From assembly GCA_017457955.1 (NCBI GenBank), contig JAFTGL010000009.1, positions 248,001-312,000 of the forward strand: a DNA stretch of 64,000 bases. The letters are read 5' to 3'. The stretch comes from Ruminococcus sp. (lineage in GTDB: Bacteria > Bacillota > Clostridia > Oscillospirales > Acutalibacteraceae). The position numbers and the translations under genes were made by a program. The notes beneath the pieces were generated by a model that was not told the origin of the DNA, made no database searches, and was given only the letters and a program-made list of their open reading frames with translations. Of this stretch, positions 13,148 to 59,720 are shown piece after piece (position 1 is the first letter of the stretch; every line of letters starts with the position of its first letter).

Positions 13148-13154
13148 GAAAAAT

Positions 13155-14003: not shown

Positions 14004-14005
14004 AT

Positions 14006-14970: not shown

Positions 14971-14975
14971 CGTTT

Positions 14976-15060: not shown

Positions 15061-15074
15061 TATCGAACAGTCGA

Positions 15075-15103
15075 ATTATAGCATTTTATTCATTAAATGT
15101 CAA
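15075..15103 (-). promoter_or_regulatory. Promoter of tRNA-Leu
   Basis: Consensus TTGACA (15098-15103), 17-base spacer, TATAAT (15075-15080), 15 bases from the tRNA 5' end. Confidence 0.9.
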
Positions 15104-15167
15104 TATCTAATTTTGTAAAATGTTGAAATCCTCTCTTCGGTAATATAGAAAAATTCATAAATAATAT

Positions 15168-15196
15168 TTGATATCTTCTATATATTATGGTATGAT
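15168..15196 (+). promoter_or_regulatory. Promoter of the acyltransferase-ade-oxidoreductase operon
   Basis: TTGATA (15168-15173), 17-base spacer, TATGAT (15191-15196), about 30 bases before the start codon. Confidence 0.65.
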
Positions 15197-15227
15197 TAAT
15201 TGATAATAAGATTTTCAGAGGTCAGTT

Positions 15228-16493
15228 ATGGAATTTGAGAGATTTGACATGAAGAAGCCGCCGGTGCGGACAAAGTGGTATTTAAAACCGCTGACCATGC
15301 TGCTGTCGGCTCCCGATAATATCGCTCATAAAAATAAGCTCACGAAAATCGGATGTGATGATCTCAAACCGCCGTATGTCCTTTTATGCAATCATAACGC
15401 CTTCATGGACTTCAAGGTCGCGACAAAGATCATCTACCCCAACTGCGCCAACTACGTCGTAGCGATCGACGGCTTTATCGGGCGTGAGAACCTCTTGCGC
15501 AGCGTCGGCTGTATCTGCAAGCGCAAATTCACCAACGATGTCACACTTGTCAGACAGCTCAAGCGCGTCATCAAAAACGGCGATATCGCGGTCATCTATC
15601 CCGAAGCGCGGTATTCGCTGTGCGGCACGACCGCCATCCTGCCCGAGTCTCTCGGCAAGCTGTGCAAGCTGCTGGGCGCTCCTGTGGCCACCCTCATCTG
15701 CCACGGTCACCACGTCAATTCCCCCTTCTGGAACACCAGGAACCGCGGCGTGAAAGGAACACAGGCGGAGCTGAGTTATCAATTTTCTCCCGAAGAATTA
15801 AAAGAGCGATCTGTCGACGAGATCAACGCTCAGCTGGTCAAAGCCTTTCAGTATGACGATTTCCGCTGGCAGAAGGATAACAACATCAGGATCACCTATC
15901 CGAAACGTGCCGAGGGCTTGCACAAGGTGCTGTACCAATGCGCACACTGCAAAACGGAGTATCAGATGACGTCCGAGGGCACAAAGCTGAAATGCAACGC
16001 CTGCGACAAGACATGGGCGATGACGGAATTTGGAGAGCTATCCGCCGACAGCGGTGATACGGAATTCAGCCACATCCCCGACTGGTACGAGTGGGAACGT
16101 GAAAACGTCCGCAGAGAAGTCGAAAACGGAACTTATTCCACAGGCGAAATGCCTGTCACCGTCGACAGCCTGCCGAACGCAAAGCGTTTTATCAAGCTCG
16201 GCAGCGGCACTATGGTGCATGACAGGAACGGCTTTCATGTCCGCGGCAAGACCGCAGACGGTAAAGTATTCCGCATGGAAAAGAGCGTGCCGTCGCTGTA
16301 TTCCTGCCACATCGAGTACGAATATCTCGGCAAACACGGCGACTGTGTCGACCTCAACACCTTAGAGGACACGTGGTATATCTATCCGCACGACTGCGAA
16401 TTCAGCGTCACCAAAATGGCGCTCGCCACGGAAGAACTCTATTTACAGCATAAGCGAAACACCGGCAGAGAGATCAAGCCGGGATTAGCATAA
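15228..16493 (+). CDS. PlsC-like acyltransferase with C-terminal zinc ribbon
   Basis: A 421-residue protein. The first 210 residues look like a 1-acylglycerol-3-phosphate acyltransferase domain, with the HX4D motif HNAFMD (about residue 54) and a PEAR in place of the usual PEG motif. Residues 232-265 form a zinc ribbon (CAHC...CNAC). About 150 residues after that carry no domain I recognise. It has no long membrane segment. The substrate is unknown; a membrane-lipid or lipid-intermediate acylation is inferred. It is first gene of a plus-strand group, with ade starting 11 bases downstream. Confidence 0.75.
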   Translation: MEFERFDMKKPPVRTKWYLKPLTMLLSAPDNIAHKNKLTKIGCDDLKPPYVLLCNHNAFMDFKVATKIIYPNCANYVVAIDGFIGRENLLRSVGCICKRKFTNDVTLVRQLKRVIKNGDIAVIYPEARYSLCGTTAILPESLGKLCKLLGAPVATLICHGHHVNSPFWNTRNRGVKGTQAELSYQFSPEELKERSVDEINAQLVKAFQYDDFRWQKDNNIRITYPKRAEGLHKVLYQCAHCKTEYQMTSEGTKLKCNACDKTWAMTEFGELSADSGDTEFSHIPDWYEWERENVRREVENGTYSTGEMPVTVDSLPNAKRFIKLGSGTMVHDRNGFHVRGKTADGKVFRMEKSVPSLYSCHIEYEYLGKHGDCVDLNTLEDTWYIYPHDCEFSVTKMALATEELYLQHKRNTGREIKPGLA

Positions 16494-21009: not shown

Positions 21010-21714
21010 TTATGATTTCTTCGCTTTGATCCGCTTCTCTTCACCGCTGAACAATCTTTTCAGATTATCCTTGTGGCGGAAGATAACGATCGCGCCGACC
21101 GCGAACGCGCAGGCGGTCGAGATCAGCACAAAGCGAAACCTAAGTTCGTTCGGTGTATCGAGATACGGCAGATAATCACAGAAGTAGGTTATCACCAAGG
21201 TATATACAGGGTATAATGCCGCGCAGGCAATAGAGCCCAGCGAGATCAGCTTTGTCGCAAAAAAGATGATCAGGAATGTGCCGAGGATCATCAGGAACAC
21301 GCGCCAGTCGACCACCAGCATGAGAGCGTTGGCGGTAACCACGCTTTTACCGCCCTTGAAGCCGTAGTAGATCGGGAAGGAATGACCGATGATGACGAAG
21401 AGTCCCGCGAGGTATCTGCCGTATTTGACATACTCGAGGGGAGCGACGTCGTTGGTCACGGTCAGCTGAGAGAAGATCCACCAGCCGATGGCGACCGCGA
21501 TAATGCCCTTGAGGTAATCGCAGATGATCGTCGCGATGGCAGGACCTTTGCCGACAGAACGCAGAACGTTGGTGAAGCCTGCGTTGCCCGAGCCCATCGT
21601 GCGGATGTCTTTTCCTGTTTTGAAGTGCGTAATGATGATTGCGGGGCTTAAACTGCCGATCAGATAAGCGATCACCATCGTAGCTAAAGTGCGAAGAATC
21701 AGTTCGAGTGTCAC
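21010..21714 (-). CDS. plsY: Acyl-phosphate:glycerol-3-phosphate acyltransferase
   Basis: A 234-residue polytopic membrane protein. It makes lysophosphatidic acid from acyl-phosphate and glycerol-3-phosphate, the first step in phospholipid synthesis. The three PlsY motifs are visible: GSGNAGFTNVLRS, GHSFPIYYGFKGGKSV and the late Gly-rich loop. It follows der with a 4-base overlap, a common Firmicutes pairing. Confidence 0.95.
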   Translation of the reverse strand: MTLELILRTLATMVIAYLIGSLSPAIIITHFKTGKDIRTMGSGNAGFTNVLRSVGKGPAIATIICDYLKGIIAVAIGWWIFSQLTVTNDVAPLEYVKYGRYLAGLFVIIGHSFPIYYGFKGGKSVVTANALMLVVDWRVFLMILGTFLIIFFATKLISLGSIACAALYPVYTLVITYFCDYLPYLDTPNELRFRFVLISTACAFAVGAIVIFRHKDNLKRLFSGEEKRIKAKKS

Positions 21715-45014: not shown

Positions 45015-46598
45015 CTATCTTAATTTTACCTTACAGGCGGTATCCAACTCATAGGGATTACCCATATTTGCAAGATAACGCTGGATCACCGTCACGTCGG
45101 TGACATTCAGCTCGTTGTCCTTCATCGCCGCGCGGATCGCCATTCTGCCGTCGTCATTCACACGCAGACCTACTAACGCACGTTGGATACAAACCGCGTC
45201 GACAGACTCGACAGCGCCGTTGCCGTCAGCATCGCCGCGCAGGAATTCATAGCTGAACAGATCGAAATAATCATACAGCCACGCGTTGCGCTCATTCAGC
45301 CAGTTTTTCAGATAGTCCATGTTCTCGGCATAAGTCGGAAGCGGTCTTTTCTGATAATTATACCACCATTTCGACCAGGTCCATACATCGGCGTTGCGTG
45401 TAAAGAGCTCCATATACGAGGCGCTCCATGTATCCAGCAAACCGCCGTCGGCAGAAATACCGGCCATGTAGTCGTAGTTCTCCTCATAAACCCGTTTGAC
45501 TTCATCCATGAACCAGCTCTTGTTGCAGAGGTGCTTATAGATGTTTCTGTTGTTCTGCAGGATACCGTCGCTTGCCGCGGTAGCCTTCGCGCGGGAAGAG
45601 TTCAGATTGGCATTCGTGTTGCCCGTGGACATGTCATAGTCCCACGCGGGGCCCGCGTAGAGCTTGCCGTCCTGATAGAAGTAGAACACCGAGCTCATGT
45701 CGAAATCAAATGTTTTCAGATATTCGTTCAGTAAATAGTATTTTGAGAAAGACGGCACGTCGATGACGGCTTCTATCTCTTCCCTGCTGCCGTTTTTCAG
45801 CGTATTGATAATTTGCGTCATGGTATCGACGATATACCCGAGCTGATCGTCGTCGGGCTCATCGGGATCGCTTGCGATAAAACGCAGACCGTCTACAGTA
45901 AAGTAGGTGGTGTCCTCTTCCTCTCTCTGCGCTTCATATTCGATCAGAAAGTCCTTTTTGCCGTCGTTGCTCTCGATGTCGATATTGACCCTGTCCTTAC
46001 CCTCCTGGATCGGCTCATAGAGCTCATAGCAGCCGCGGTAGGAATCATCGACGATCACCTCAACGATACGATGCTCGGAGGTGTAGGGCAAGTCAAGATG
46101 ACGCGCGAATTCATTCGCCATATAATTGCGGAGCAGTGTAGGGTCAAAGGCGTTTGCGAGCAGCGCCCACTTCTTGCCCTTGCCCATCCCGAGGACGTCC
46201 TTTTTCTTTTCAAACTTAAAGGTATATGCCTTCTTTTGAACGAAGGTCATAGCGGTCGTGTTTCCGCGTACCTTAAATGAGCACGTATCACTCAGTACAG
46301 AACCATCGGTATCGGTGATCGTCACCACAGCGTCAACGTAGCCGTCATCCTTCTGTAAGCTCGCGCCGTTGCCTTCTTCCGTTGTAATGCGGATCTGCGG
46401 TACGATCAGGTCGCCGTCATCCGCAGTAAAGGCAGCTGCTCTGTCAGCGCCGACTGCGGCAAGGTCATTGACATCTTCGATGATCTCCTCATAAGGCGGC
46501 TCAGATATGTATTCTTCCGCGAACACCGTAAAGCACGATGCTCCGACGATACAAAACGCAAGCATAAAGCACAGCGTTATAGCGATCATTCTTTTCAT
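45015..46598 (-). CDS. Secreted CotH-kinase-family protein with dockerin
   Basis: A 527-residue exported protein. A signal peptide (1-27) and a linker precede a CotH-like kinase domain with family motifs FKVRGNTTA, KKAYTFKFEK, LLANAFDPTLLRNYMA, DSYRGCYELYEPI and AGPAWDYDMSTGN. CotH phosphorylates spore-coat and other secreted proteins. The end is a dockerin: one full calcium repeat (GDADGNGAVESVDA) and a second in which the DxDxD residues are lost (KDNELNVTDVT). A dockerin on a CotH kinase suggests it is carried on an extracellular scaffold. The S24/S26 peptidase gene is 73 bases upstream. Confidence 0.9.
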   Translation of the reverse strand: MKRMIAITLCFMLAFCIVGASCFTVFAEEYISEPPYEEIIEDVNDLAAVGADRAAAFTADDGDLIVPQIRITTEEGNGASLQKDDGYVDAVVTITDTDGSVLSDTCSFKVRGNTTAMTFVQKKAYTFKFEKKKDVLGMGKGKKWALLANAFDPTLLRNYMANEFARHLDLPYTSEHRIVEVIVDDSYRGCYELYEPIQEGKDRVNIDIESNDGKKDFLIEYEAQREEEDTTYFTVDGLRFIASDPDEPDDDQLGYIVDTMTQIINTLKNGSREEIEAVIDVPSFSKYYLLNEYLKTFDFDMSSVFYFYQDGKLYAGPAWDYDMSTGNTNANLNSSRAKATAASDGILQNNRNIYKHLCNKSWFMDEVKRVYEENYDYMAGISADGGLLDTWSASYMELFTRNADVWTWSKWWYNYQKRPLPTYAENMDYLKNWLNERNAWLYDYFDLFSYEFLRGDADGNGAVESVDAVCIQRALVGLRVNDDGRMAIRAAMKDNELNVTDVTVIQRYLANMGNPYELDTACKVKLR

Positions 46599-47788: not shown

Positions 47789-48787
47789 TCATATCCCGCT
47801 GTTTTTGTAGAACTGAACGATATCGTCCATAAAATCCCCGTCAAGTTCATTGGCGGTCACAGGATCGGAGACTTCATCAGTTGAAGCCAAGCGGTAATCC
47901 AGCGCCTCATCGCTCAGCCACAGTCCGCTGTGACCGCTGTGCAGCGGATCTGAGAGGATGGTAAGACTCAGATCGGGGTTGTCGGAATCACTGAGAAAAG
48001 CGCTCAGGCGCACCGCTTCGGGGATCGTGCTGTCATCACTGCCTTCGAAAACCGCGACAGGTTTTCCCGCTTCATAGATACATTGTGAAGCGCTCTGACT
48101 TCCCCGACCGCTGAACACAAGGCTGTTTTCGAGCGACAGAAAGGGATATTCGATATCCGCGAGGATTCCGACATAATTCCTTGCCGTTTCACGCATGAGC
48201 ATCGTCGGAGATTCAAAGCCCGAGAGGATGACAGCCGCTTTGACAGAGGGAAGAATGGAACAGGTCGCGACGGCATAGCCGCCCGCGGAATGTCCGTAGA
48301 GATAAATCGGAAGCTGATTCAAAGCAGGATCATCCGCAACCGCGTCAAGTGCAGACCGCAGATCAAGCGCGGGCTGGGATAATCCTACTGTACCCGTACC
48401 TTCGCTTTCGCCGATACCTGTACCGTCATAGCAGAGAACGTCATACCCGCTGTCGGCAAAATACATCATCTCGGGCAGATGCGCCGCGCCGCTCTCGCCA
48501 AAGCCCGCGGCGATCACTACCAGTCCCGCGGGTTCTTCGCAAGTATAACAGTATCCTGTCAGCGTATTTTCACCCGACGGAAATTGTATCCGACGGCAGG
48601 GATAGCGTGAAGCGTCAATATCGTCATACCGCATGGAGTACGCGGGAAGCGTATCCCTTCGCGGAAAAAATGAATGAAAAAACAGCGAAGCCGCGACCAT
48701 CGACACGATACAGAAAGAAAGAATCACTACCAAGAGAGTAGAAAGCACCCTTTTCACATACGATTTTGTTTTTGTATGTAAAGACAT
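47789..48787 (-). CDS. Membrane-anchored alpha/beta hydrolase
   Basis: A 332-residue protein with one N-terminal transmembrane segment (about 13-36) and an extracellular alpha/beta hydrolase domain. The nucleophile elbow GHSAGG is near residue 165, with the acid in SDDSTIPE and the base in DPLHSGHSG. The substrate is unknown. Related enzymes act on lipids or esters. ATG 48787 has AGGAGA upstream. It is one of three such hydrolases within 6 kb, along with FakA/DegV genes. Confidence 0.88.
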   Translation of the reverse strand: MSLHTKTKSYVKRVLSTLLVVILSFCIVSMVAASLFFHSFFPRRDTLPAYSMRYDDIDASRYPCRRIQFPSGENTLTGYCYTCEEPAGLVVIAAGFGESGAAHLPEMMYFADSGYDVLCYDGTGIGESEGTGTVGLSQPALDLRSALDAVADDPALNQLPIYLYGHSAGGYAVATCSILPSVKAAVILSGFESPTMLMRETARNYVGILADIEYPFLSLENSLVFSGRGSQSASQCIYEAGKPVAVFEGSDDSTIPEAVRLSAFLSDSDNPDLSLTILSDPLHSGHSGLWLSDEALDYRLASTDEVSDPVTANELDGDFMDDIVQFYKNSGI

Positions 48788-48835
48788 GTTCAATCTCCTT
48801 TCTTATTCTTTCCGTAAAATTTTCTGTCATTCCTA

Positions 48836-48872
48836 TAAAAAGTAATCGGGGACAAGTCGCCCTGTCCCCGAT
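48836..48872 (-). terminator. Terminator of the zinc-ribbon membrane protein gene
   Basis: Stem CGGGGACA / TGTCCCCG with an 8-base loop, followed by ATTACTTTTT on the minus strand. Confidence 0.8.
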
Positions 48873-48888: not shown

Positions 48889-49563
48889 TTAATAATAGTA
48901 ATAACCGCTGCTGTAGTAGTTGTTATAGGAGGACGTCGCGCCGATGATCACCGCAATAATAATAATCATCCAGAACAACGTACAGACAATACCGGCAATC
49001 AGACCAACCAAACCTAAAATTTTGCCTGTCTTGGCACGACCTGATAAAACATAACCGGAAGCAGCATACTTCTTTGCTTTACTCAATGCAATAGCTCCAA
49101 AAATGATACCCAAGAAATTGACATAAGGAATAAACGCAAAAGAAATCGCCAAAATTCCGAAAACAAGCACAGATTTCGACATGCTGCGCTCAACAGGGTC
49201 CTCCATCGGCATGCCTGCGTTATACTGAGGCTGAGCGAAATCGTACTGCTGAGGCTGATACTGGGGCTGCGCGTACTGAGGCTGAGCAGGCTGCGCGTAC
49301 CGGGGCTGCTCAGGCTGCTGAACCGGCTGTGCGTATACGGGCTGAGCGGGCTCAGGCTGAACCGGCTGCGCGTACTGGGGCTGTTCGGGCTGCTGAACAG
49401 GCTGTGTGTATACGGGCTGAGCGGGCTCAGACTCGACAGGCTGTGCGTACTGAGGCTGTGCGACCTCCTCTACAGGCTGGGGAGCAGCCTCCGCAGGAGT
49501 ACCGCAAACACCGCAAAACTTTGCGCCGGGAGCAAGTTCGTTTCCACATTGCTTACAAATCAT
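48889..49563 (-). CDS. Zinc-ribbon protein with AQP-rich repeats and DUF4190-like membrane part
   Basis: A 224-residue protein. Residues 3-21 form a zinc ribbon (CKQCG...CGVCG). A long Ala/Gln/Pro-rich stretch (about 28-115) contains a 25-residue repeat found twice in tandem (residues 39-63 and 64-88, DNA 49300-49449). The C-terminal part has two transmembrane helices with GIIFGAIALSKAKKY between them and ends in Tyr-rich YNNYYSSGYYYY. The topology suggests a cytosolic metal-binding domain on a flexible arm. Its function is unknown. GGAGGTAAAA precedes the ATG. Confidence 0.8.
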   Translation of the reverse strand: MICKQCGNELAPGAKFCGVCGTPAEAAPQPVEEVAQPQYAQPVESEPAQPVYTQPVQQPEQPQYAQPVQPEPAQPVYAQPVQQPEQPRYAQPAQPQYAQPQYQPQQYDFAQPQYNAGMPMEDPVERSMSKSVLVFGILAISFAFIPYVNFLGIIFGAIALSKAKKYAASGYVLSGRAKTGKILGLVGLIAGIVCTLFWMIIIIAVIIGATSSYNNYYSSGYYYY

Positions 49564-49608: not shown

Positions 49609-50544
49609 TTATATATCCAAATGCTGAAAAAAGCCAATTACAGTTTCGTCATATCTTTCGGGCGCGTTGATACGCACGCGTGAATGGTCGCCTTTATCGA
49701 ACCAAACGAGCTTCTTTTCGCTCTGACAGCGGTCGTATACGCGCTGTACTTCGTCGGGCTTTGAAAAGACATCCTCACGGCTGTGGAGGAAGAGGATCGG
49801 CTTTTTCAGCTTGTCGATACGATAGACAGGACCGTCATGCACGACGTCAGCGCCGCCGAAAATACGGATATACAGCATGACAAAAAAGGTCGCGGGCTGA
49901 ACGGGATGATGGCCGTCGATCAGGTGGTTGACGAAGGAATCATGGAAGGTGGTGTACATTCCCTCCGCCGCCATCGCCTTGAAGTAATCGGGGCACTCGG
50001 GCGCGGTCAAAGCAAACAATCCGACACATGAACCGATACAGATACCGTGTATCACGATACTGTTCTGATGGAATTTGTCGTGCAGCAGCTCACCCCAGCG
50101 CAGGATATCGCGGTATTCCTTGAAGCCGAGGGAATGGTATTTGCCCTCGGAGAGTCCGTGCGCACGGTTGTCGATCACTAAGACGTTGTAACCGAGCTTG
50201 CGGTACGGTTCGGCAAAATAGTAGGAATAGAGCAATGACTCCATCCTGCCCGCAATGATGATCACCGAGGTATCGGAACCGAAATCGAAGTATTCACCGA
50301 CCAGCCTGAAGCCGTCGCTGACGATCTCGACAGGCTGTTTATATTCTGCGTACTGTTGATCCCACGCGATACCGATGTCAAACATCCTCTTATATTCTTC
50401 GTCATCAGGGATACTGCACTCTCTGCCCCACTTCTTCTTAGAAGTCCTGACCAGCAGGACTGAGTAAAGATAATAGCCTAAGATCGGCAGGGGCAGCAGT
50501 CCTACGATGACAACAGCAATAATGATCCAAATCCAGAAAGGCAT
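49609..50544 (-). CDS. Alpha/beta hydrolase with a GxCxG nucleophile elbow
   Basis: A 311-residue protein with one N-terminal transmembrane helix (about 5-27) and an alpha/beta hydrolase fold. The usual G-x-S-x-G elbow reads GICIG, so the predicted nucleophile is Cys, as in dienelactone-hydrolase relatives. An SREDVFS segment may hold the acid and KGDHSR the base. The substrate is unknown. It follows the FakA-like gene by 16 bases and is co-transcribed with it. AAGGAGTCG site upstream of the ATG. Confidence 0.85.
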   Translation of the reverse strand: MPFWIWIIIAVVIVGLLPLPILGYYLYSVLLVRTSKKKWGRECSIPDDEEYKRMFDIGIAWDQQYAEYKQPVEIVSDGFRLVGEYFDFGSDTSVIIIAGRMESLLYSYYFAEPYRKLGYNVLVIDNRAHGLSEGKYHSLGFKEYRDILRWGELLHDKFHQNSIVIHGICIGSCVGLFALTAPECPDYFKAMAAEGMYTTFHDSFVNHLIDGHHPVQPATFFVMLYIRIFGGADVVHDGPVYRIDKLKKPILFLHSREDVFSKPDEVQRVYDRCQSEKKLVWFDKGDHSRVRINAPERYDETVIGFFQHLDI

Positions 50545-50560: not shown

Positions 50561-52201
50561 TTATGCTAAACCGACGATCCAGTGGTAGATCTCCTGACCG
50601 CCGTCGATAAACTCGAAATCCATCAGCGGATAACGCGCGGACAAAAGCTCATACAGTGCCTCTTCCCTGTCGGCGGGAACGTCCTTGCCGCGGAAGATCA
50701 CGCAGGTCTCTTTATCATCGATATCAGGCACGACCGATAACGTATCAGCGATCGTCTTGGCAAAATCCGAGCCTACGGAGACGATCTCGCCATCGAGGAG
50801 TGCGATCTCGTCGCCCTTTCTGCATGAGATCTCATGGAAGGAATAGTTGCGCGAGGCGACCGTCTGGCTGACTGTCGCGATATTGTCGATCCCGCTTTGC
50901 ATCTGGGAGACGCGGAACTTCGCGTCGTCGCTGTCGGGGATATCCATTGCCATCGCGAAATATCCCTGCGCGACGCTCTTTGACTCGATCACCGTGATGT
51001 TCTTGCGTTTGGACAGCTCCACCGCCTGATTCGCCGCAAGAATGATGTTGGGATTGTTTGGCAGGATGACGATTTCTTCCGCGTCGAGCTGTTCGATCGC
51101 TTCGAGGAATTCTGCCGACGAGGTGTTCATGGTAGTGCCGCCGTCGATCACGATATCACAGCCGAAGTTTTGAAACAGCTCCTTCATCCCCTCGCCGTTG
51201 ACGACAGAGATGATTGCGAGCGGCTTATGCTCCTTTTTCTGATTCAGGTCACGGTCATGCTCGTTGTGCTGGACCTGCATATTCTCCATCTTGAAGGTCA
51301 AAAATTCGCCGTACTGTTGGGCGAAGGCAATCACCTTCGAGGGATAGAGCGTGTGGATATGCACCTTCACGCGCATGCCGTCCACCACGACAGCGATCGA
51401 GTTGCCGAAGAAGCGCAGTTCACTGATGAAATCGTTCTTCGAAAACTCCTGCTGATAGCGGGAATGGTTCAGCCGCTGTAAGATAAATTCGGTGCAGTAG
51501 CCGTCGGTAAACTCCGAATTCTCATTGAACAGCGAGAGATCGACCAATCCGCTCTGCGGGTGAGCGTTTTGCTCCTTCGGGATGATGACCTCGCCGTACA
51601 GGCACTTGAGCATGCCCTCTACGATCAGGATAAAGCCGTATGCGCCGCTGTCCACAACGCCCGCTTCTTTCAGCACGCTGAGCATTTCGGGCGTATAGGA
51701 AAGCGTCTTGCGCATTTCGGCAATGTACATCGAAAGGATACTTTCGATGGACGAGTTGCGGGTGATCTGCGTGCGGATATGCTCGATACCCTCGCGGGTG
51801 ACGGAAAGGATCGTACCCTCCACAGGATGGACGACCGCTTCATACGCCGTGCGGTAGCCGCGGATCAAACCATTGCGCAGCTCGCCCGGACCGATCAGCG
51901 GAGAACGCGTCATCTCCACCGCGAAGCCCTTAAAAAACTGCGACAGGATCACGCCGGAGTTGCCTCTCGCGCCCAGCAGCATACCGTCCGAAAGGCTCCT
52001 GAGATACGCGCCGCAGTCCTCGGAGGACTTCGCGTAGCGCGTGCCGTTGCCAAGCGTCAGCGCCATGTTGGTGCCGGTATCGCCGTCGGGCACGGGAAAA
52101 ACATTCAGACGGTTGACCTCGCCCTCATGCTGCTGCAAAAAGGCAAGACCGTTTTCTATCATTTTTTCAAGTAATATTCCGTTGATTCTTCTTGTAGACA
52201 T
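50561..52201 (-). CDS. FakA-like fatty acid kinase (DAK2/DegV-associated)
   Basis: A 546-residue YloV/FakA-type protein. The N-terminal DhaL/DAK2 ATP-binding domain has NVFPVPDGDTGTNMALTL; the middle domain has GMRVKVHIHTLYP; the C-terminal part has the FakA ending (VILPNNPNIILAANQA). FakA phosphorylates fatty acids held on DegV-type carriers to make acyl-phosphate, the substrate of PlsY (21 kb) and related acyltransferases. A DegV gene starts right upstream (22 bases). The ribosome site before ATG 52201 is weak, so the start is the likeliest but not certain. Confidence 0.9.
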   Translation of the reverse strand: MSTRRINGILLEKMIENGLAFLQQHEGEVNRLNVFPVPDGDTGTNMALTLGNGTRYAKSSEDCGAYLRSLSDGMLLGARGNSGVILSQFFKGFAVEMTRSPLIGPGELRNGLIRGYRTAYEAVVHPVEGTILSVTREGIEHIRTQITRNSSIESILSMYIAEMRKTLSYTPEMLSVLKEAGVVDSGAYGFILIVEGMLKCLYGEVIIPKEQNAHPQSGLVDLSLFNENSEFTDGYCTEFILQRLNHSRYQQEFSKNDFISELRFFGNSIAVVVDGMRVKVHIHTLYPSKVIAFAQQYGEFLTFKMENMQVQHNEHDRDLNQKKEHKPLAIISVVNGEGMKELFQNFGCDIVIDGGTTMNTSSAEFLEAIEQLDAEEIVILPNNPNIILAANQAVELSKRKNITVIESKSVAQGYFAMAMDIPDSDDAKFRVSQMQSGIDNIATVSQTVASRNYSFHEISCRKGDEIALLDGEIVSVGSDFAKTIADTLSVVPDIDDKETCVIFRGKDVPADREEALYELLSARYPLMDFEFIDGGQEIYHWIVGLA

Positions 52202-52223
52202 TACTAAAACCAATTTTTTAGAT

Positions 52224-53159
52224 TTATTTCGCCTCGGCGATAAACTTCTCGATCAAAGCGCGCTCTTCGGACAGATCCTCGGAGATCGGCTTGCCCATAT
52301 AGTAAGCCGCCATCAGTCCGGGACCGATGTTGATGCCGCAGAACGGGAATACGTCGTTGATATAAACCGCCTTCGGATGGAACTTCTCTTCGATCATCTT
52401 CTTATACTGCTCCGCCTGCGGGAAACGGCTGGTCTGAGCGATAAAGATATACTGATCTTCGGGGTTCTCGATGGTGGCTTCGATGTACTTGAGCAGTACC
52501 GCGTATGCCGCCTTAGCGCCCTTCGCCTTGCCGAGAACGGTCGTCAAACCGCCGGCGTCGAACTCGCCGATAGGCTTGATACCCGCGAGCTGACCGAAGA
52601 ATGCCTTCGGGTGGGTGATCCTGCCCTTCTTCGCGACAAAGCTCAGATCATCCAGCCAGCCCGCCTGATGGAAACGGTTCTTGTTCTGCTCCAGATACTC
52701 CGCGACCTCTTCAAAGCTCTTGCCGTCACTGCGCAGGATGGAAGCGTGTACCAGCATGAGACCGAAGCCCGGACCGAAGCGCATGGAATCGACCAGAGTG
52801 ATCTTCGCGTTCGGGTACTTCTCCAGAATATTCTTGCGGGCAGTCGTCGCAAAGCCCAGTGCGCCGGAAATAGCGCTGGAAATGGTTACGCAGATGACGT
52901 CCTTGCCGTCCTTGACATAAGACTCAAACGCGTTCTCGTACTCCGTGATATTGGGCGGAGCGGTCGCGTAATCGTTCGGATTCTTCTTCAGCTCGGTGTA
53001 GAACTGCTCGCGGGAAACATCCTCCCACTTCATAAAGGTCGGGACGTCGCCCTTGCCGGGCAATACCAGATGTCCGTTGATGACCTTGATATCATACTTC
53101 TCCTGGAATTCGGCGGAGAGGTCACAGCCCGCGTCCGCCATCAAAATAAATTCACTCAT
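52224..53159 (-). CDS. DegV-family fatty acid-binding protein
   Basis: A 311-residue DegV/FakB protein that holds fatty acid for phosphorylation by FakA. Motifs are ILMADAGCDLSAEF at the start, TSPPN-like TAPPN (residue 67), ISSAISGALGFA (about 94) and the KGRITHPKAFFG segment. The partner kinase FakA-like gene follows after 22 bases. This pair could supply acyl-phosphate to the phospholipid and acyl-lipid pathways in this region. Confidence 0.92.
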   Translation of the reverse strand: MSEFILMADAGCDLSAEFQEKYDIKVINGHLVLPGKGDVPTFMKWEDVSREQFYTELKKNPNDYATAPPNITEYENAFESYVKDGKDVICVTISSAISGALGFATTARKNILEKYPNAKITLVDSMRFGPGFGLMLVHASILRSDGKSFEEVAEYLEQNKNRFHQAGWLDDLSFVAKKGRITHPKAFFGQLAGIKPIGEFDAGGLTTVLGKAKGAKAAYAVLLKYIEATIENPEDQYIFIAQTSRFPQAEQYKKMIEEKFHPKAVYINDVFPFCGINIGPGLMAAYYMGKPISEDLSEERALIEKFIAEAK

Positions 53160-53176: not shown

Positions 53177-54106
53177 TTATTTGATATATTGTTCAATATA
53201 ATTTGACATTGCTTTTGTGACCTGTTCTTCACCCGCGAGAAAGGCGGTGGTGTGACCGTCCGAGTCAACGATCACCATTTGCTTCCCAGAGGTACAGGCT
53301 TCGAAATTCGCCTGACCTTCCGACAGATCGACCGTCGGGTCGTTGGTGGTATGAAAAAACAGGATCGGTTTTTTCGCGTTCTTCAAATGCCCGACCGTCT
53401 GCTCATTGATGTCGATATGCATATCATGCCTGCATAGCAAGCGGATCAGCGGGATCAGCACGCCGAAAGGCAGGTGCATGCGCTTCGCGTCATGCCGGAG
53501 CTGGTGCTGTATCGAGACATACGCGCTGTCGATCATCATGCACTTTACATGCTCATCCGTCATCCTGTCGGACAGATACGCGAGGGTCGTTCCGCCCATC
53601 GACGCGCCGTACAGCAAAATTCGCTGTGATGGGTCATTATTTTCAAGATACCCGATCCATGAGAGAACGTCATCCTGTTCTAACAGCCCCATTCCGCTTT
53701 GCTTACCGCCGCTGTACGAATGAGCGCGCTGGTAAATGACCAACAGATTGAAGCCGCTGTCATACAGCCATCTTGCGGGCGACACCAGATTCACATACGG
53801 GTCGGCGTTGTAGCCGTGCACCATGACGGCGGTTTTATCCGCGCCGCGGTCATAGTGATCGGCGCAGAGCGTCACGCCGTCCTTTGCGGTGATACTGACA
53901 CGCTCATATCCCGCCTCTTTCAGATAACGCAGGTCGGACAGCATCCGCTCCTTATACAGCTCGACAGACGGCTTATGCAACCGTTCATCATCGAGCGGCA
54001 GTACCTTGCGTCGACCGAACACGGAACGGTAGCAGACCACCGCGGGAGCGAACACAAAGATCACTGACAAGAGAAGAATTGCTATGAAGATGTAGAGAAA
54101 AAGCAT
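53177..54106 (-). CDS. Alpha/beta hydrolase with N-terminal anchor
   Basis: A 309-residue protein with one N-terminal transmembrane helix (about 2-22) and an alpha/beta hydrolase fold. The nucleophile elbow is GASMGG (about residue 168); TTNDPTVDLSE supplies the acid and DSDGHTTAFLAG the base. It resembles the extracellular hydrolase family at 47.8-48.8 kb and may act on esters or lipids. It is 17 bases before DegV and 33 bases after the LRAT-type gene, so it belongs to the same transcript cluster. Confidence 0.87.
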   Translation of the reverse strand: MLFLYIFIAILLLSVIFVFAPAVVCYRSVFGRRKVLPLDDERLHKPSVELYKERMLSDLRYLKEAGYERVSITAKDGVTLCADHYDRGADKTAVMVHGYNADPYVNLVSPARWLYDSGFNLLVIYQRAHSYSGGKQSGMGLLEQDDVLSWIGYLENNDPSQRILLYGASMGGTTLAYLSDRMTDEHVKCMMIDSAYVSIQHQLRHDAKRMHLPFGVLIPLIRLLCRHDMHIDINEQTVGHLKNAKKPILFFHTTNDPTVDLSEGQANFEACTSGKQMVIVDSDGHTTAFLAGEEQVTKAMSNYIEQYIK

Positions 54107-54139: not shown

Positions 54140-54556
54140 TTATTTTTTCTCTGAAAGAAATTTTCTGAACTTTTCGCGTACTGCCCGCTCCTGCTCGGAG
54201 ACCGACTCGCCGAAAACGACCTCGTTGACAAAGTGCTCGCAATTGTTGTGGATCAGGCTGTAGCCGCCCTCGCCGATACGCGCTCTGGCTTCGGCAACGG
54301 ACTGTTCGGGAGATTTGCGGCGGCGTTTTTCTTTGAAGCTCAGCACTGCCGTCTCAACCAGCTTCCCGCAGGAAAAGACGTCGATATCGGTAGCGAGAAC
54401 CTTGATGTTCTGCTGATTTTTCAGATTTTCCGCTGTCGGCGGCAGTCCGAAGGCGATTACCTCGTCGTCGCTGACAAAGAGCCCGTAGTGGTACACGGAG
54501 CCGAGCTTCACGCGGATGATGTCGCCGAAGCAACATTCCCGATATTCCCATTTCAT
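54140..54556 (-). CDS. LRAT-type acyltransferase/hydrolase protein
   Basis: A 138-residue protein with an LRAT/NlpC-like fold. The predicted catalytic His23 is in VYHYGLFV and Cys106 in NNCEHFVNEVVFG. LRAT-fold enzymes transfer or hydrolyse acyl groups, usually from phospholipids. A basic, Glu/Lys-rich tail follows. The gene overlaps the ACP gene by 4 bases and is the last of the six-gene acyl-activation operon. It may act on a product of this operon, but no substrate is known. Confidence 0.8.
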   Translation of the reverse strand: MKWEYRECCFGDIIRVKLGSVYHYGLFVSDDEVIAFGLPPTAENLKNQQNIKVLATDIDVFSCGKLVETAVLSFKEKRRRKSPEQSVAEARARIGEGGYSLIHNNCEHFVNEVVFGESVSEQERAVREKFRKFLSEKK

Positions 54557-54807
54557 TTCAGACGTTCCTCGATATAGGTGATGACGTCGCCGACGGTCTC
54601 AAAGTCGTTGATGGTCGCGTTGTCGAACACGATCCCGAAGGTCTCTTCGATCGCGATAACGAGATAGAGCACGGAAACAGAGTTGAAGCCCAGCTCAGTG
54701 ATAAGCTTGGTGCTCTCGGTGCAGTTTTCGATCTTGTCGCGGTTTTTATCGTCGGCAAAGAGCAAAATCTCTTTCAGTTTGTCAAAAATCTCAGCTCTGC
54801 TTAACAT
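54553..54807 (-). CDS. Acyl carrier protein
   Basis: An 84-residue carrier protein with the phosphopantetheine site ELGFNSVSVLYL (Ser43), where the usual DS is NS. It is a dedicated carrier rather than the housekeeping AcpP, since it lies inside the ligase/acyltransferase operon. It starts 7 bases inside the end of the upstream adenylate-forming gene and overlaps the LRAT gene by 4 bases, so translation is coupled. The NS substitution is a minor departure from most ACPs. Confidence 0.9.
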   Translation of the reverse strand: MLSRAEIFDKLKEILLFADDKNRDKIENCTESTKLITELGFNSVSVLYLVIAIEETFGIVFDNATINDFETVGDVITYIEERLK

Positions 54808-56315
54808 TTGTGATACCTCTTGATCTTCATACTGGGCGTGCGCTCAAAGTCGGAGTCGCGCACGATGATGCGGGAGATCTTCTGCTCGGAGGGCAGCTCT
54901 GCGTTGATCTTCTCGAGTTCTTCGGTGATGACCTGTACAGGGTCCACATCACCCAGCTTCGCCACCTCGGGAGCGCGGGGCACGACTTCGAGAGCAAGGA
55001 TATGTGTGCCGTTCTCGATCACGTCCTCATACACCTGCGCGTCTTGAATCAAACTCAGTTCAAGGAACTTGACCTCCAGCTCCGCGGGAGAGATATTCTC
55101 GCCGGTCGGCAGGACGATGATCTCCTTGATTCGTCCTGTGATATACAGAAAACCGTCATCATCAAAACGAACGAGATCACCGGTGCGGAAGAAGCCTTCT
55201 TCGTCGTATACGCCCTCTTCCTCTTCGCCGATGTAGCCATCCATCATGTTCTTACCCTTTAAGAGCAGTTCGCCGTCAACGACCTTGATCTGCTGATTCG
55301 GATAAAGGATACCGACCGACTCGGGCTTTTTGAGGTTTTCGGGATTGCCGGAAACGAGATTTGCGCTCTCGGTCAGACCGTACCCGGGCAGAAGTGTGAT
55401 ATCAAATACCTTCTTATACTCCTGGATCAGGTAAGGCGGTACGGCAGCCGCGCCGCAGATGATGTATTTCAGCGAATCGCCGAGCATGTTCTTGTTGAAC
55501 TTCTTTGACAGGTTCAGCGCCATTTCCGCAAGCGCGGGAACCAGCACCAGAACCGTCGGGCGGAACATCGCGATATCGCGGAACATGTCCTTATTGTTGC
55601 GGCAGATGTACAGAGTCGAGCCGGTGTACAGTGCGCTCATCAGGTTGCGGATCAGTCCGAATACGTGGGTCAGAGGCAGTACCAGCAGATAACGCTGACC
55701 GAAAACGTCCCACAAGCCGTAACAGCCGTTGACCGTACCCTGCATGACAGCGGAGTTGGACAGCAGAGCGCCCTTGCTCTTGCCTGTCGTGCCGCCTGTG
55801 AACATAATGACACAGGGATCGCCGCCGTCAGGGAAAGCCATATCCACATCGGTCTCGCCCTCTGCGTCGGAAGAGATCACCGTGACGTCGGGACGCTTCA
55901 TAGAAAGGATCTCTAAATTATCTTTTAAAGCGGGATGATAAACGAGTGTATCGATACCGAACTTCATCACACAGCCGAACACAGTCATTTTATCGAGCTG
56001 GGGCGGCAGGATCACCGCGGTATAGCCGAGAGTAGTGACTGCCAGATACGCGCGGACAAAGTCATAGGAATTGGGGCAGTAGATACCGACGCGGGGCTTT
56101 TTGTCCTCACGCTGTATCAGTGAGCGGAATCTTTTCACATCCGCTTCGATCTGTGCGTAGGTATACTTTTTACCGTCGTCCTCGATCGCGATAACGTCGG
56201 GATACTGTTCAACAGATTTTTGCCACATTTCGGACACGCTGTCCATCTCAACAATGCGGTCGAACTGCTGCGGGTCGCAGTACTTTCTGAAAGGTTCTCT
56301 TGAAGTTATTTGCAT
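54801..56315 (-). CDS. Adenylate-forming ligase (acyl/aryl activating)
   Basis: A 504-residue ANL-family protein. Motifs are MFTGGTTGKSKGALL (P-loop), YGLTESANLVSG, and the C-terminal TGRIKEIIVLPTGENISPAELE hinge, with Lys in SMKIKRYHKC at the end. It activates a carboxylate with ATP and loads it onto a thiol, likely the ACP encoded next to it. It ends 7 bases inside the ACP gene. The substrate is unknown; a fatty acid or other carboxylic acid fits the acyltransferases beside it. Confidence 0.9.
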   Translation of the reverse strand: MQITSREPFRKYCDPQQFDRIVEMDSVSEMWQKSVEQYPDVIAIEDDGKKYTYAQIEADVKRFRSLIQREDKKPRVGIYCPNSYDFVRAYLAVTTLGYTAVILPPQLDKMTVFGCVMKFGIDTLVYHPALKDNLEILSMKRPDVTVISSDAEGETDVDMAFPDGGDPCVIMFTGGTTGKSKGALLSNSAVMQGTVNGCYGLWDVFGQRYLLVLPLTHVFGLIRNLMSALYTGSTLYICRNNKDMFRDIAMFRPTVLVLVPALAEMALNLSKKFNKNMLGDSLKYIICGAAAVPPYLIQEYKKVFDITLLPGYGLTESANLVSGNPENLKKPESVGILYPNQQIKVVDGELLLKGKNMMDGYIGEEEEGVYDEEGFFRTGDLVRFDDDGFLYITGRIKEIIVLPTGENISPAELEVKFLELSLIQDAQVYEDVIENGTHILALEVVPRAPEVAKLGDVDPVQVITEELEKINAELPSEQKISRIIVRDSDFERTPSMKIKRYHKC

Positions 56316-56335
56316 TTTAGATTCCTCCGATAGGA

Positions 56336-56995
56336 TTATTTTCCATGTTGTTGAAAAGCAAGCTCTTTCAGCTCTGATTCTTTATTAAAAATCAGGTTCG
56401 TCACCTGCTCGATGTCGGACATCGTGGGACGACCTCCGAACATTTCGTTGATGTCGATCGCCTCGCCGATCACGATACGCAGTCTGCTCCATCGCGGTTC
56501 ATGCGCCTTGATATAGACGGGGATGATCGGCACTTTCGCGCGCATCGCCATCAGCACCATACCGCTTTTGAAGCCGCGCATTTCACCCGAACCGTCGTTG
56601 ATGTGCCCCTCGGGAAAGATCGAGACGACCTCGCCGCTTGTGAGGTGTTCATTGATCTCCTTCATCGTCCCGAAGCCGGTGTTCTCGATGTCGATCGGGA
56701 TACAAAGCACGTGCTCCAAAAACCATTTTGCCTTGGTCTCATAAAACTGCTTGTTGCAGATATAGTGCTGTCTGCGGTACCATACCGCCAGCATCAGGTA
56801 CACAGGGTCAAAGAAGCAGTTGTGGTTCGACACCAACAGTGCGCCGCCTTTGATTTTCTTCTTCGCGGCTTTGTTTTCATAAATGAATTTCGGACGGTAC
56901 CAGGTCAATGTCGGCAGAACGCCCGTGATCCTGACAAAATCCACAAACAGATATTTCAGGGAAAACAACTTAGCCTTTTTTCTTTGTTCTTTCAT
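56336..56995 (-). CDS. 1-acyl-sn-glycerol-3-phosphate acyltransferase-like protein
   Basis: A 219-residue PlsC-family acyltransferase with HX4D as HNCFFD, followed by IDIENTGFGTMKEI and the FPEGHINDGSG motif. It is likely soluble or peripheral at the membrane. It overlaps the upstream paralogue by 26 bases and is 20 bases from the ligase gene. It could acylate a glycerol-phosphate or another hydroxyl with an ACP-bound chain; the acceptor is unknown. Confidence 0.9.
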   Translation of the reverse strand: MKEQRKKAKLFSLKYLFVDFVRITGVLPTLTWYRPKFIYENKAAKKKIKGGALLVSNHNCFFDPVYLMLAVWYRRQHYICNKQFYETKAKWFLEHVLCIPIDIENTGFGTMKEINEHLTSGEVVSIFPEGHINDGSGEMRGFKSGMVLMAMRAKVPIIPVYIKAHEPRWSRLRIVIGEAIDINEMFGGRPTMSDIEQVTNLIFNKESELKELAFQQHGK

Positions 56996-57617
56996 TCAGC
57001 ATTTGTCCTAAGTCAATGATTTTGTCCCGCATGACACGGGTCAAGAACGCGATATTCTCCTTATCGCTCAGCGCGGGATCGGCGATCTCGGACGGAATGA
57101 TAGGCGTGCCGATCATCACATGCGCGCGTTTTTTGAGATTGAAATACGAGCCGTCCGTGTACAACGGCACGATCGGGGTATCGGTCGTCAGCGCTAAGTA
57201 CGCCGCGCCTGTCTTGAATTCGAGCGGCGGAGTCTCCCCAACTCTGGGCAACCGTCCCTCGGGACAGATACCGACCACACCGCCCTTTGACAGGATCTTT
57301 TCCGATTTCGCCATAAAGCCGTAGTCGTGGGTATTGCGGTTGACATAAATGCCGCCGAGCATTCGGAGCAGTAAACCCAGCCCGGGCTTATCCATGACAA
57401 GCTCCGACATTTGAAAACGTAATGTACGCCGCCAAAAGACGAAGATCGCGACAGGATAGTCAAAGACCGACAGGTGATTCGAAATCAGGATCGCCTTGCC
57501 GCGGATACGGCGGGACTGCACCGCCTTGTTTTCATAATATATCTTTTTGCGAAAGCAGATGAACTGGATAGGCCATCCTGTGATCTTCGCAAACCAGTTA
57601 AACAAAAAGTAAAACAT
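56970..57617 (-). CDS. Second PlsC-family acyltransferase
   Basis: A 215-residue paralogue of the next gene, with HX4D as HLSVFD and the CPEGRLPRVG motif. It starts with a hydrophobic stretch (YFLFNWFAKI). Two acyltransferases in a row suggest two successive acylations of one product. It starts 3 bases after the stop of the large ligase gene, so translation is coupled. Confidence 0.9.
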   Translation of the reverse strand: MFYFLFNWFAKITGWPIQFICFRKKIYYENKAVQSRRIRGKAILISNHLSVFDYPVAIFVFWRRTLRFQMSELVMDKPGLGLLLRMLGGIYVNRNTHDYGFMAKSEKILSKGGVVGICPEGRLPRVGETPPLEFKTGAAYLALTTDTPIVPLYTDGSYFNLKKRAHVMIGTPIIPSEIADPALSDKENIAFLTRVMRDKIIDLGQMLNERTKKKG

Positions 57618-57620
57618 ATC

Positions 57621-59546
57621 TTATAATTTATCCGATAAGTATTCATGGAACTTTGCGACTGTTGATAAAGCCGCGCTCTGCTCCACAGGGATCTTCACCG
57701 AGAACTCGGTCTCCAGCCCGCTGATCATACCGAAGTAGTCGAGCGAGGAACCGCCTAAGTCGAGGAAGAAATCCGCCTGCTTGGGGATATCCTCCGCTTT
57801 CATGCTCAGCGCGGCGGCAAAGAACTCTTTGATCTTCAGCGCCAGTTCATCGTTCAAGCCTTCCTCCGCATTCAGCGGCTTGACAGGCGTGAACCTGCCG
57901 TTTTCCAGCTGATCGCGCAGACGGATACGGTTGAGCTTGTATTCATCGCCGACGATCAGCCGATCGCTGACGTACAGGATCTTGCGGATCTCAGAGGATA
58001 AATGCATTTCCTCTAACTTCGCCTTGACAGCTTTGTCCAGCGCGGCGAACTTTTCCTCGGAAATGAACGCGCCCACTGAGATCACCAAGGTCGGGACGAC
58101 CTGAGCGCCTTCACGCGCGCCGATCAGGCAGACTTCGTTGACATTTGTCAGCTTCAATTCAGGCTCGATCAGGTTGGGATTGAGGTTCTCGCCCGAATAG
58201 CCGATGACCAGATCGTCCCTTCTGCCGAGTATCTTATAATGTCCGTTGTCGCAGACAGCTAAATCGCGGGTTTGGAAGAAGCCGTTGTTGATGATTTTGC
58301 GCTCGCCGTCCTCGATGATATAGCGGGCGATCGCCTTGCCCTTGACCTCCAGCTCGCCGTCCGCGTTGATACGGTATTCCATGCCGTCCATCGGCTTGCC
58401 GATGTAACAGTCGTTGAGGATACTCGGCTTTTTGGAAAGTTCAACGGATGTAATGCCGATCTCGCTCATGCCGTAGCCGTCGGCGATATGATAGCCGATA
58501 CCATTGAAGAAGCGCATGGCGTCGGTGGAGATCGACGAGCCGCCTGTAATCATGAAGCGGATGCTTTCGCCGAACAGATTCTCTCTGACTTCCTTGAACG
58601 CGAGCTTTGAGAACGCCTCGCCTAAGGCGGAGTCGCCGAGCTTATAGCGCAATTTCATCGCTTTGTTGAACTTGTTCTCCGTCTCTTCACCGCGCAGGTG
58701 GATCGTCTTTTTCGCCTGTTCATAGACCTTTTCCCAGAACAGCGGCACAGCGAAGATATGCGTCACCTCGTGACGGCGCACCGTGCCCGTGATCGTCTCG
58801 GGCATCATATCCTTTAACTCGACAAAGGTTCGCGAGAAGAACGAAAACCAGATATATACCGCTACCAGACCGAAGGCGTGGTAGAACGGCAAGAATGTCA
58901 ACAGCTTCAACCTGTCTTTATAATGGCGTTTGATCAGATCACATTCGGTGATGATCCCGTAGCTGCCCTTGATCTGGTGGAACAGCTCTTCGGCAGAATA
59001 GGCGCAGAGCTTGACATGCTGCGAAGTACCCGAGGTCATGACGAGGATCTCCGTGCCGAACTTTTCGGGAATGATCCGCTCGTTGGGGCGTTTGATCTCC
59101 TCATTCATCACGGTTTTGACAGAATAAGTGCGCTTGTCAGAAACGACCGCCTTCGCGCCGCAGTCACGGATCGCTCCTTCGACCATCTCCTGCGACAGGC
59201 GCAGGTTAATGAGCAGAGGTGTATATCCGCAGATGATGATTGCCCAGAAATTCTCTATCCAGTCAAGCGAGTTGTCCATCGACAGTCCGACGACAGAGCC
59301 CGCTTCTATATCGCTCAGCAGTCGGGACAGCGACAGCGACTTTTTCATGATCCTGTCCTCGACCTCGCCGTAGGTAATACTCTCGATCCGATAACCCTTG
59401 CTGCGCTCATACATGATATTGTCCTTTTCCTGAAACATCAGGGAAAAGAGCGTTTCCATCGTAAGCCCCTGTTCCTCAAAGGTCCTCAGCTTAGACTGTA
59501 CATAGTCCTTGATACTTTTATACTGTCCGAGTCCGATATCTCCCAT
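57621..59546 (-). CDS. Adenylate-forming ligase fused to a carrier domain
   Basis: A protein of about 641 residues with an ANL adenylation domain (TSGTSQHVKLC as the ATP loop, YGMSEIGITSVE, the C-terminal GRRDDLVIGYSGENLNPNLIE segment) and a C-terminal acyl-carrier domain (LDLGGSSLDYFGMI, phosphopantetheine Ser). It both activates a carboxylate and carries it. Its loading to a transfer step by the following two acyltransferases is inferred. The start is uncertain, as ATG 59546 lacks a strong ribosome site and the frame extends to 59642; a promoter lies just upstream (59609-59637). Confidence 0.88.
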   Translation of the reverse strand: MGDIGLGQYKSIKDYVQSKLRTFEEQGLTMETLFSLMFQEKDNIMYERSKGYRIESITYGEVEDRIMKKSLSLSRLLSDIEAGSVVGLSMDNSLDWIENFWAIIICGYTPLLINLRLSQEMVEGAIRDCGAKAVVSDKRTYSVKTVMNEEIKRPNERIIPEKFGTEILVMTSGTSQHVKLCAYSAEELFHQIKGSYGIITECDLIKRHYKDRLKLLTFLPFYHAFGLVAVYIWFSFFSRTFVELKDMMPETITGTVRRHEVTHIFAVPLFWEKVYEQAKKTIHLRGEETENKFNKAMKLRYKLGDSALGEAFSKLAFKEVRENLFGESIRFMITGGSSISTDAMRFFNGIGYHIADGYGMSEIGITSVELSKKPSILNDCYIGKPMDGMEYRINADGELEVKGKAIARYIIEDGERKIINNGFFQTRDLAVCDNGHYKILGRRDDLVIGYSGENLNPNLIEPELKLTNVNEVCLIGAREGAQVVPTLVISVGAFISEEKFAALDKAVKAKLEEMHLSSEIRKILYVSDRLIVGDEYKLNRIRLRDQLENGRFTPVKPLNAEEGLNDELALKIKEFFAAALSMKAEDIPKQADFFLDLGGSSLDYFGMISGLETEFSVKIPVEQSAALSTVAKFHEYLSDKL

Positions 59547-59687: not shown

Positions 59688-59720
59688 GAAAAAACTGCCG
59701 GCAGAATGACTGTCGGCAGT
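59688..59720 (-). terminator. Terminator of the DUF1846 gene
   Basis: Stem ACTGCCGACAG / CTGCCGGCAGT (imperfect) followed by TTTTTTC on the minus strand. It separates this gene from the acyl-activation operon. Confidence 0.85.

Follow-up and report, generated by a model that had tools for sequence, protein, structure and literature searches.

The minus strand of a 64,000-nucleotide stretch of contig JAFTGL010000009.1 from Ruminococcus sp. (the window) carries a tightly packed string of genes for acyl activation and acyl transfer. An earlier note on this DNA had described six open reading frames (ORFs) across positions 54140-59546, namely a ligase-carrier fusion (LA), two PlsC-type acyltransferases (P1 and P2), a second adenylate-forming ligase (L2), an acyl carrier protein (ACP) and an LRAT-type enzyme, most of them overlapping or a few bases apart. 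The ORF list and the Pfam domains agree with this description, and the coordinates from LA to LRAT give a 3-base gap, a 26-base overlap, a 20-base gap, a 7-base overlap and a 4-base overlap. Six genes are too few, however, as the unit continues past LRAT on the same strand with abhA, FakB, FakA, abhB and a zinc-ribbon gene (gaps of 33, 17, 10, 16 and 45 bases), of which FakB, FakA and abhB are more constant in relatives than L2, ACP and LRAT. Based on the close same-strand spacing, a hairpin after the last gene, a hairpin with a T run upstream of LA and a consensus scan in which no sigma-70-like site is listed for the minus strand from the upstream DUF1846 gene to LA, we read LA-P1-P2-L2-ACP-LRAT-abhA-FakB-FakA-abhB-zinc ribbon as a presumed single transcription unit of eleven genes (Table 1). 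The upstream hairpin, which is absent from the list of the consensus scan with its loop limit of 8, is the probable terminator of the DUF1846 gene.

Table 1. Genes and flanking elements of the operon, with positions in the window (long loci as defined in the text; aa, amino acids).
Feature	Position	Strand	Basis and remarks
LA, ligase with C-terminal carrier fusion, 641 aa	57621..59546	-	ATG start, open frame reaches TTG at 59642; Pfam
P1, PlsC-type acyltransferase, 215 aa, NHX4D	56970..57617	-	Pfam, motif, tree
P2, PlsC-type acyltransferase, 219 aa, NHX4D	56336..56995	-	Pfam, motif, tree
L2, stand-alone adenylate-forming ligase, fatty/carboxylic-acid type, 504 aa	54801..56315	-	Pfam, models, motifs
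ACP, stand-alone acyl carrier protein, 84 aa, Ser43	54553..54807	-	Pfam, conserved Ser
LRAT/PLAAT-type thiol acyltransferase, 138 aa; His23, Tyr99, Cys106	54140..54556	-	Pfam, alignment
abhA, alpha/beta hydrolase, N-terminus hydrophobic by eye	53177..54106	-	Pfam; solved relative
FakB, DegV family, presumed fatty-acid binding	52224..53159	-	Pfam; FakB structures among relatives
FakA, fatty acid kinase-type (YloV family)	50561..52213	-	Pfam; one of three genome copies
abhB, alpha/beta hydrolase, N-terminus hydrophobic by eye	49609..50544	-	Pfam; 55/55 long loci
Zinc-ribbon protein, hydrophobic C-terminal segments by eye; probable last gene	48889..49563	-	29/55 long loci
Terminator-like hairpin, 12 pairs (7 G-C), 3' of zinc-ribbon gene	48845..48872	-	consensus scan
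Imperfect G+C-rich hairpin and six T, between upstream DUF1846 gene and LA	59689..59719	-	seen directly in sequence
abhC, third alpha/beta hydrolase, beyond hairpin	47789..48793	-	frequent neighbour, 20/55 long loci; membership doubtful

The same string of genes is common to many Clostridia-type bacteria, many of them from the ruminant gut. Of 200 genomes from the window's family, 13 carry LA, among them the window's own genome, and the two further genomes of its genus in this sample are without it; across a class sample of 391 genomes, its profile (E up to 1e-60) finds 13 genomes from six families. A scan of named contigs returned at least 274 LA relatives, of which the 80 most similar were kept, so that these loci do not span the whole range. 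Among their record titles 21 name a ruminant host, two name horse faeces and 32 more carry RUG names, which we take to be those of a rumen catalogue. Genes at these loci were called by BLAST against the proteins of the window and a few relatives, and were counted in the 55 loci with at least 9.5 kb after LA (long loci), the other 25 being too short. LA (by selection), FakB, FakA and abhB are found in all 55, P1 and P2 in 54 each, abhA in 52, ACP and L2 in 51 each, LRAT in 49, an MFS gene and the zinc ribbon in 29 each and abhC in 20. The order seen in the window is repeated through abhB in 25 of these loci and recurs in 12 others with the MFS gene added between FakB and FakA, while 18 deviate, mostly by single genes among the patterns listed. 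Within the family sample, LRAT exceeds its Pfam cut-off in 11 of the 200 genomes, all of which belong to the 13 genomes carrying the ligase (hypergeometric 2e-16); three more genomes have LRAT matches below the cut-off. Because the order recurs in the long loci with single-gene exceptions and LRAT above the cut-off is confined to ligase-carrier genomes, the grouping is not due to chance, and the co-occurrence in related genomes that the earlier note had proposed to look for is borne out.

Both ligases retain the residues needed for activation. LA matches the AMP-binding (8.8e-34) and PP-binding (9.2e-8) Pfam families, and its catalytic Lys537 as well as its carrier Ser601 are invariant in 26 of 26 aligned rows, the window included. 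For L2, an AMP-binding-type ligase (4.6e-61), we aligned the window protein with 63 of 67 relatives (those of sufficient length): Lys497 is kept in all 64 rows, and the TGGTTG, Lys181, GYGLTE and TGD columns are kept in at least 63. The stand-alone ACP (3.1e-7) shows Ser43 in 65 of 65 rows. The arrangement expected of an acyl-ACP synthetase, a ligase with its catalytic lysine and a carrier at hand, is thereby found for both enzymes, since LA is fused to its carrier and L2 adjoins ACP; with catalytic residues kept and carriers part of the unit, the earlier view that such enzymes can activate a carboxylate with ATP and keep it on a carrier is supported. For LA and L2 alike, the amino-acid adenylation model gives lower scores than acyl-ligase models do, with no curated cut-off reached among the best 25 models per ligase. 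A nonribosomal peptide synthetase (NRPS) or lipopeptide reading, which the same note had allowed for in speaking of a 'lipopeptide-like' product, was rejected on these scores and because the scanned proteins of the window contain no condensation domain. Against plasmids, the best place for LA among the matches listed is at 24.7% identity, too low to be informative. One relative (L054) has a second LA-like gene upstream of the operon copy, before 9397. Elsewhere in the window's own genome, contig C1 carries six AMP-binding matches at about 89-152 kb (L001-L006), two of them within one 2409-aa frame, in what is probably an NRPS-like region outside the operon.

The solved relatives of the two ligases are acyl ligases, and the closest by sequence include succinylbenzoate, oxalate and feruloyl ligases as well as fatty-acyl ones. 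As fatty-acyl enzymes are only part of this range, the ligases might activate other acids (aromatic, short branched or dicarboxylic), the Fak genes then being mere neighbours. We consider this very improbable, because FakB and FakA lie near LA not only in all 55 long loci but also in 10 of 15 stretches from other families, a constancy that speaks in favour of a fatty acid as their common substrate. A fatty acid would also be the substrate that best accounts for FakB and FakA, ligases with carriers and PlsC-type enzymes together.

FakA matches the Dak2 (4.7e-34) and FakA-like_C (2.5e-58) Pfam families and lies above the cut-off of TIGR03599 (509 vs 396 bits) but below that of the FakA_VfrB equivalog (393 vs 975). 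FakB is a DegV-family protein (2.3e-51) that stays below the cut-off of the FakB1 equivalog (98.5 vs 350) and has structures of fatty-acid-kinase FakB proteins among its solved relatives. Together they presumably form a fatty acid kinase-type system. For abhA, the sole solved relative found is the esterase 5g59. Three FakA genes of the window's own genome exceed the cut-off (the operon copy and one each on contigs C11 and C1), and the operon FakA is 38% identical to the C11 copy vs 55-58% to the operon copies of two relatives (L023 and L040). Among 17 genomes without LA, 11 have a single match over the cut-off, one has a match plus a fragment (G009), one has two (G185), one has a fragment only (G002) and three have none; of the genomes with LA, one has none (G064), one has fragments only (G178), one has a single match (G075) and the others have at least two. 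The C11 copy belongs to a second Fak locus (9656-14609, L034), a row of FakA, FakB, a GNAT-like gene, a PlsX match and an ACP.

P1 and P2 are both assigned to the PlsC type by Pfam (3.7e-21 and 1.6e-21), and the NHX4D motif is present in 77 of 77 P1 and 73 of 73 P2 relatives. The PEG block is kept in 71 of 73 P2 relatives and in only 29 of 77 P1 relatives, yet P1 has Glu120 and Arg122 in 77 of 78. In a tree of 50 chosen sequences (24 P1, 24 P2 and two other PlsC-type proteins of the window's own genome), P1 and P2 each form one group (one change each) with support 100/100, and each group spans both main cluster types. The two additional proteins sit on very long branches at opposite sides of the tree, which does not fix the order of duplication relative to housekeeping PlsC. 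This topology favours two distinct acyl-transfer steps, retained since before the cluster types diverged, and on our best reading P1 and P2 would be old, distinct PlsC-type paralogues that acylate lipid. The earlier note had argued from two ligases and two acyltransferases to a doubly acylated product; its acyltransferase half fits the paralogues kept across cluster types, but its ligase half does not carry over to the smaller versions of the cluster, from which L2 is absent.

The best model for P1 and P2 is the Aas-type PRK08633, although both fall far below its cut-off. Aas combines an acyl-ACP synthetase with an acyltransferase and is the partner of the MFS protein LplT, according to PMC11416262, and an analogous Gram-positive system could be imagined in which the MFS protein imports or flips lysophospholipid, LA and P1 re-acylate it and the hydrolases and LRAT trim it. 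The MFS gene lies between FakB and FakA in the 29 long loci that have it and beside LA in three stretches from other families (L131, L132 and L134), as such a system would lead one to expect. However, the ORF list of the window operon holds no MFS gene, the MFS proteins scanned (L023 and L131) match GPH sugar-symporter models, weakly, and are at most putative LplT-like transporters (no solved relatives of the MFS protein were found at 0.001), and Aas leaves FakA and FakB unexplained. Lysolipid uptake and re-acylation is for these reasons an improbable account of the operon.

The LRAT-type enzyme is recognised well above its Pfam cut-off (5.6e-16; 59.3 vs 24.3 bits). His23 and Tyr99 are present in 63 of 63 rows and Cys106 in 61, the remaining two being gaps. 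The solved relatives found are PLAAT/HRASLS enzymes (best 2lkt, 0.00029), and Tyr and Cys are spaced by seven, as are Tyr154 and Cys161 of LRAT, residues named in a reference title within PMC3142127. The length of the LRAT frame varies across 62 loci, with at least 320 aa in 23, 250-319 aa in 14 and fewer in 25; a W..KE motif occurs in 21, 3 and 3 of these long, middle and short frames, respectively, and a G-D-E-type motif in 16, 1 and 0. When the extensions of two long frames were scanned, that of L023 matched 4'-phosphopantetheinyl transferase (PPTase; 28.0 bits, cut-off 25), while that of L024 was not recognised by Pfam as a PPTase. From the long frames, the motifs and the L023 match, LRAT seems to be fused to a PPTase-like domain in many members, and in other members this domain seems to have degenerated or disappeared. 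In the window the frame is of the short form, and the genome contains one PF01648 match elsewhere.

More divergent versions of the cluster help to separate its core from its accessories. Seven distant stretches from the window's family were fetched (L025, L026, L027, L028, L029, L031 and L032; the distant LA is 33-37% identical), and all of them contain LA, two PlsC units (in one frame in L031), LRAT and FakA, without L2. ACP was called in five of the seven; PlsX lies inside all seven clusters, and another PlsX is found elsewhere in six of the seven genomes. By profile, the members of the distant clusters that were scanned encode a PPTase, a polysaccharide-deacetylase-type protein and a GT2 enzyme. 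Two other distant carriers yielded a short stretch (L030) and LA alone (L033). Outside the family, the 15 stretches come from 12 genomes. Three of them (L131, L132 and L134) have FakB-FakA-MFS-LA-P1-abhB without L2, ACP or LRAT; L127-L129 show a GT2 gene, a further gene (lipase-like in L128), LA, a PlsC-type frame (with two acyltransferase stretches in L128), FakB, abhB and FakA; L133 matches the window apart from a missing LRAT, L135 and L136 are similar to the seven distant clusters and L141 is cut at the contig edge. Since the smaller versions keep kinase, ligase-carrier, acyltransferase and hydrolase without L2 or LRAT, the kinase is, judged by gene content, part of the core and the two-ligase theme is not. 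The GT2 gene (weak AglJ and PpgS models) and the deacetylase gene of the distant cluster types (L041 2034-3047, L026 6304-7179 and L136 13513-14547) form a pair that we take to be reminiscent of FlmF2/NaxD of Francisella. L128 also encodes, at 13161-15686, an 841-aa frame in which an AP-endonuclease-type TIM barrel is joined to an AMP-binding ligase, and frames of the same length lie near the kinase gene in L127 and L129.

To place the operon in the context of fatty acid synthesis, we searched for FabF and FabH. In the family sample FabF is found in none of the 13 carriers of LA vs 72 of 187 other genomes (Fisher p 0.005). FabH is without a match in 12 of the 13, an imperfect test given that the FabF-positive G185 also had no FabH match, although the five other FabF genomes were matched. 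The window's own genome (74% complete) has no match to either, and FabF is likewise lacking in the 12 first relatives listed (G200-G211), which represent the window's clade. The clade may need fatty acids from outside, or use a route that these profiles do not cover. As a general explanation of the operon, fatty acid auxotrophy fails: among 50 of the 80 named-locus genomes 23 match FabF, 20 of them over the cut-off, and after removal of three duplicate genomes the pooled comparison is 23 of 60 distinct carriers, not all from the controls' family, vs 72 of 187 (p 1.0). We retain it only for the window's clade (0 of 12). One carrier that does have FabF (G227) is Ruminococcaceae bacterium P7, a cultured rumen strain with the operon in its record (L074). 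A replacement of PlsX by the ligases was also ruled out, as the own genome has two PlsX genes and at least one is present in 12 of the 13 carriers. The PlsY match of the genome lies within the window itself (21022-21687). On contig C10 (4475-10743, L035) plsX adjoins an rnc-like gene, followed by radical-SAM-like and smc-like genes (by eye); no fab or acpP gene, named by eye, stands between plsX and rnc, as if lost there, whereas Bacillus subtilis has fab genes in this place.

Gene content, gene order, catalytic residues and conservation are directly visible at these loci; from them we infer substrates, direction and product, and we lean, with somewhat better than even confidence, towards an operon that captures exogenous fatty acids and puts them into lipid. 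FakB would bind free fatty acids, perhaps released by the hydrolases, and FakA would phosphorylate them to acyl-phosphate, which could supply housekeeping PlsY/PlsX. In parallel, LA would activate a fatty acid with ATP and load its own carrier domain, and L2 would load the stand-alone ACP. P1 and P2, each using a carrier, might then catalyse two O-acylations, in succession or as alternatives, with a lysolipid or glycerol phosphate as acceptor. The LRAT/PLAAT-type enzyme would act as an accessory, forming an acyl-cysteine and moving the acyl chain onto or off a lipid or from one lipid to another. Where FabF is absent, as in the window's genome, outside fatty acids could in this manner reach both membrane-lipid positions.

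Several observations weigh against capture of exogenous fatty acids for membrane lipid. LA-like genes occur without the partners in L033 and L138-L140, the 19.9 kb fetched of L137 contain no Fak gene, and LRAT, ACP or L2 is missing from some members. The second PLAAT histidine is not kept, Ala or Gln standing in 17 aligned rows at what we take to be its place in the catalytic site. The substrates of the ligases are not readable from sequence. FabF is matched in the 23 of 50 carrier genomes mentioned above, and palmitate reduced the abundance of Ruminococcus in one feeding trial, as stated in PMC12394162. Finally, two PlsX genes, PlsY and one more PlsC-type gene, of the housekeeping kind, persist in the own genome, so that P1 and P2 are not needed for ordinary phosphatidic acid.

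As the genome still has PlsX, PlsY and another PlsC-type gene, the main rival is a dedicated pathway that has its own kinase, carriers and acyltransferases, often its own PPTase-like domain, runs apart from bulk membrane synthesis and makes a single unusual product, a lipid or signalling molecule that would be N-acylated, glycosylated or polyacylated. We regard it as possible but clearly less probable than general fatty acid capture. The extra FakA copies (three in the own genome, vs one full copy in 12 and two in one of the 17 non-carriers) would, besides fitting fatty acid capture, suit a private pathway, as would the 23 of 62 LRAT frames of at least 320 aa, with W..KE in 21 and one of the two scanned matching a PPTase family. 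The presence of PlsX, PPTase, a glycosyltransferase (weak best models AglJ and PpgS) and a deacetylase in another cluster type points the same way, and N-acyltransferases occur among PLAAT enzymes according to PMC7387801. On the other hand, Pfam scans identified no head-group or condensation enzyme in the window operon, and the smallest versions (FakB, FakA, MFS, LA, P1 and abhB) look too simple for an elaborate product.

A bolder reading, which we put forward tentatively and consider doubtful, is a new bacterial lipid assembly line. Outside chains would be sorted by activation chemistry, with the kinase on one side and the ligases with their two carriers on the other, and placed at defined positions by P1 and P2, and the PLAAT-type enzyme would add or move another chain, giving rise to a new lipid class of ruminant-gut Clostridia. 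The operon would join the acyl-phosphate and acyl-carrier routes in one unit, in a clade whose sampled members (G200-G211) lack FabF, and it provides testable genes. An LRAT/PLAAT-type enzyme would moreover stand next to carrier-protein enzymes in a bacterial system, a setting without a precedent that we could find in the open-licence literature. In the same literature, which leaves subscription papers uncovered, the gene set is not found as a described pathway, in line with the earlier note.

Outside the operon, at 45015-46598, the window encodes a secreted-looking protein with a C-terminal repeat that is dockerin-like by eye; we take this motif to suggest a cellulosome-type surface.

Parts of the operon resemble known systems, with which we compare it here. 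As in LplT-Aas (PMC11416262), an acyl-ACP-type ligase is combined with an acyltransferase, in relatives of the operon often together with an MFS gene. Here, however, the proteins are separate, have their own carriers and are accompanied by a kinase, and the MFS protein is of the GPH type and absent from the window, so that the pairing of ligase and acyltransferase with an LplT-type MFS protein is not found in the window operon. The OaaA-OaaACP-OaaC fatty acid amide clusters (PMC13142362) share with it a stand-alone ligase, an ACP and an origin in gut Clostridia, but the operon has PlsC and LRAT enzymes instead of the condensation domain and adds a fatty acid kinase; no stand-alone condensation domain was found in the window proteins scanned, relatives not having been searched by profile. 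Both systems share parts with the operon but miss defining features. With the FakA/FakB system and its PlsX/PlsY partners the operon has FakB- and FakA-type proteins in common, within its presumed transcription unit, although in the operon these are accompanied by acyl-carrier ligases, two PlsC paralogues and LRAT, and this FakA is extra to two others. The human PLAAT (HRASLS) enzymes and staphylococcal LnsA (PMC7387801) belong to the same permuted papain-like superfamily as the operon LRAT, which keeps His, Tyr and Cys; it differs in the lack of a conserved second histidine and, in many relatives, in the long frame with a PPTase-like extension. The AasR/AcpR pair of rhodobacterial sphingolipid synthesis (PMC9386255) differs in that no serine palmitoyltransferase is among the operon genes identified, that one carrier is fused to its ligase and that PlsC-type enzymes take its place. 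Nevertheless, as a specialised ligase and carrier by which free fatty acids are channelled into a single lipid, it offers a precedent for the kind of private pair that we propose for the operon.

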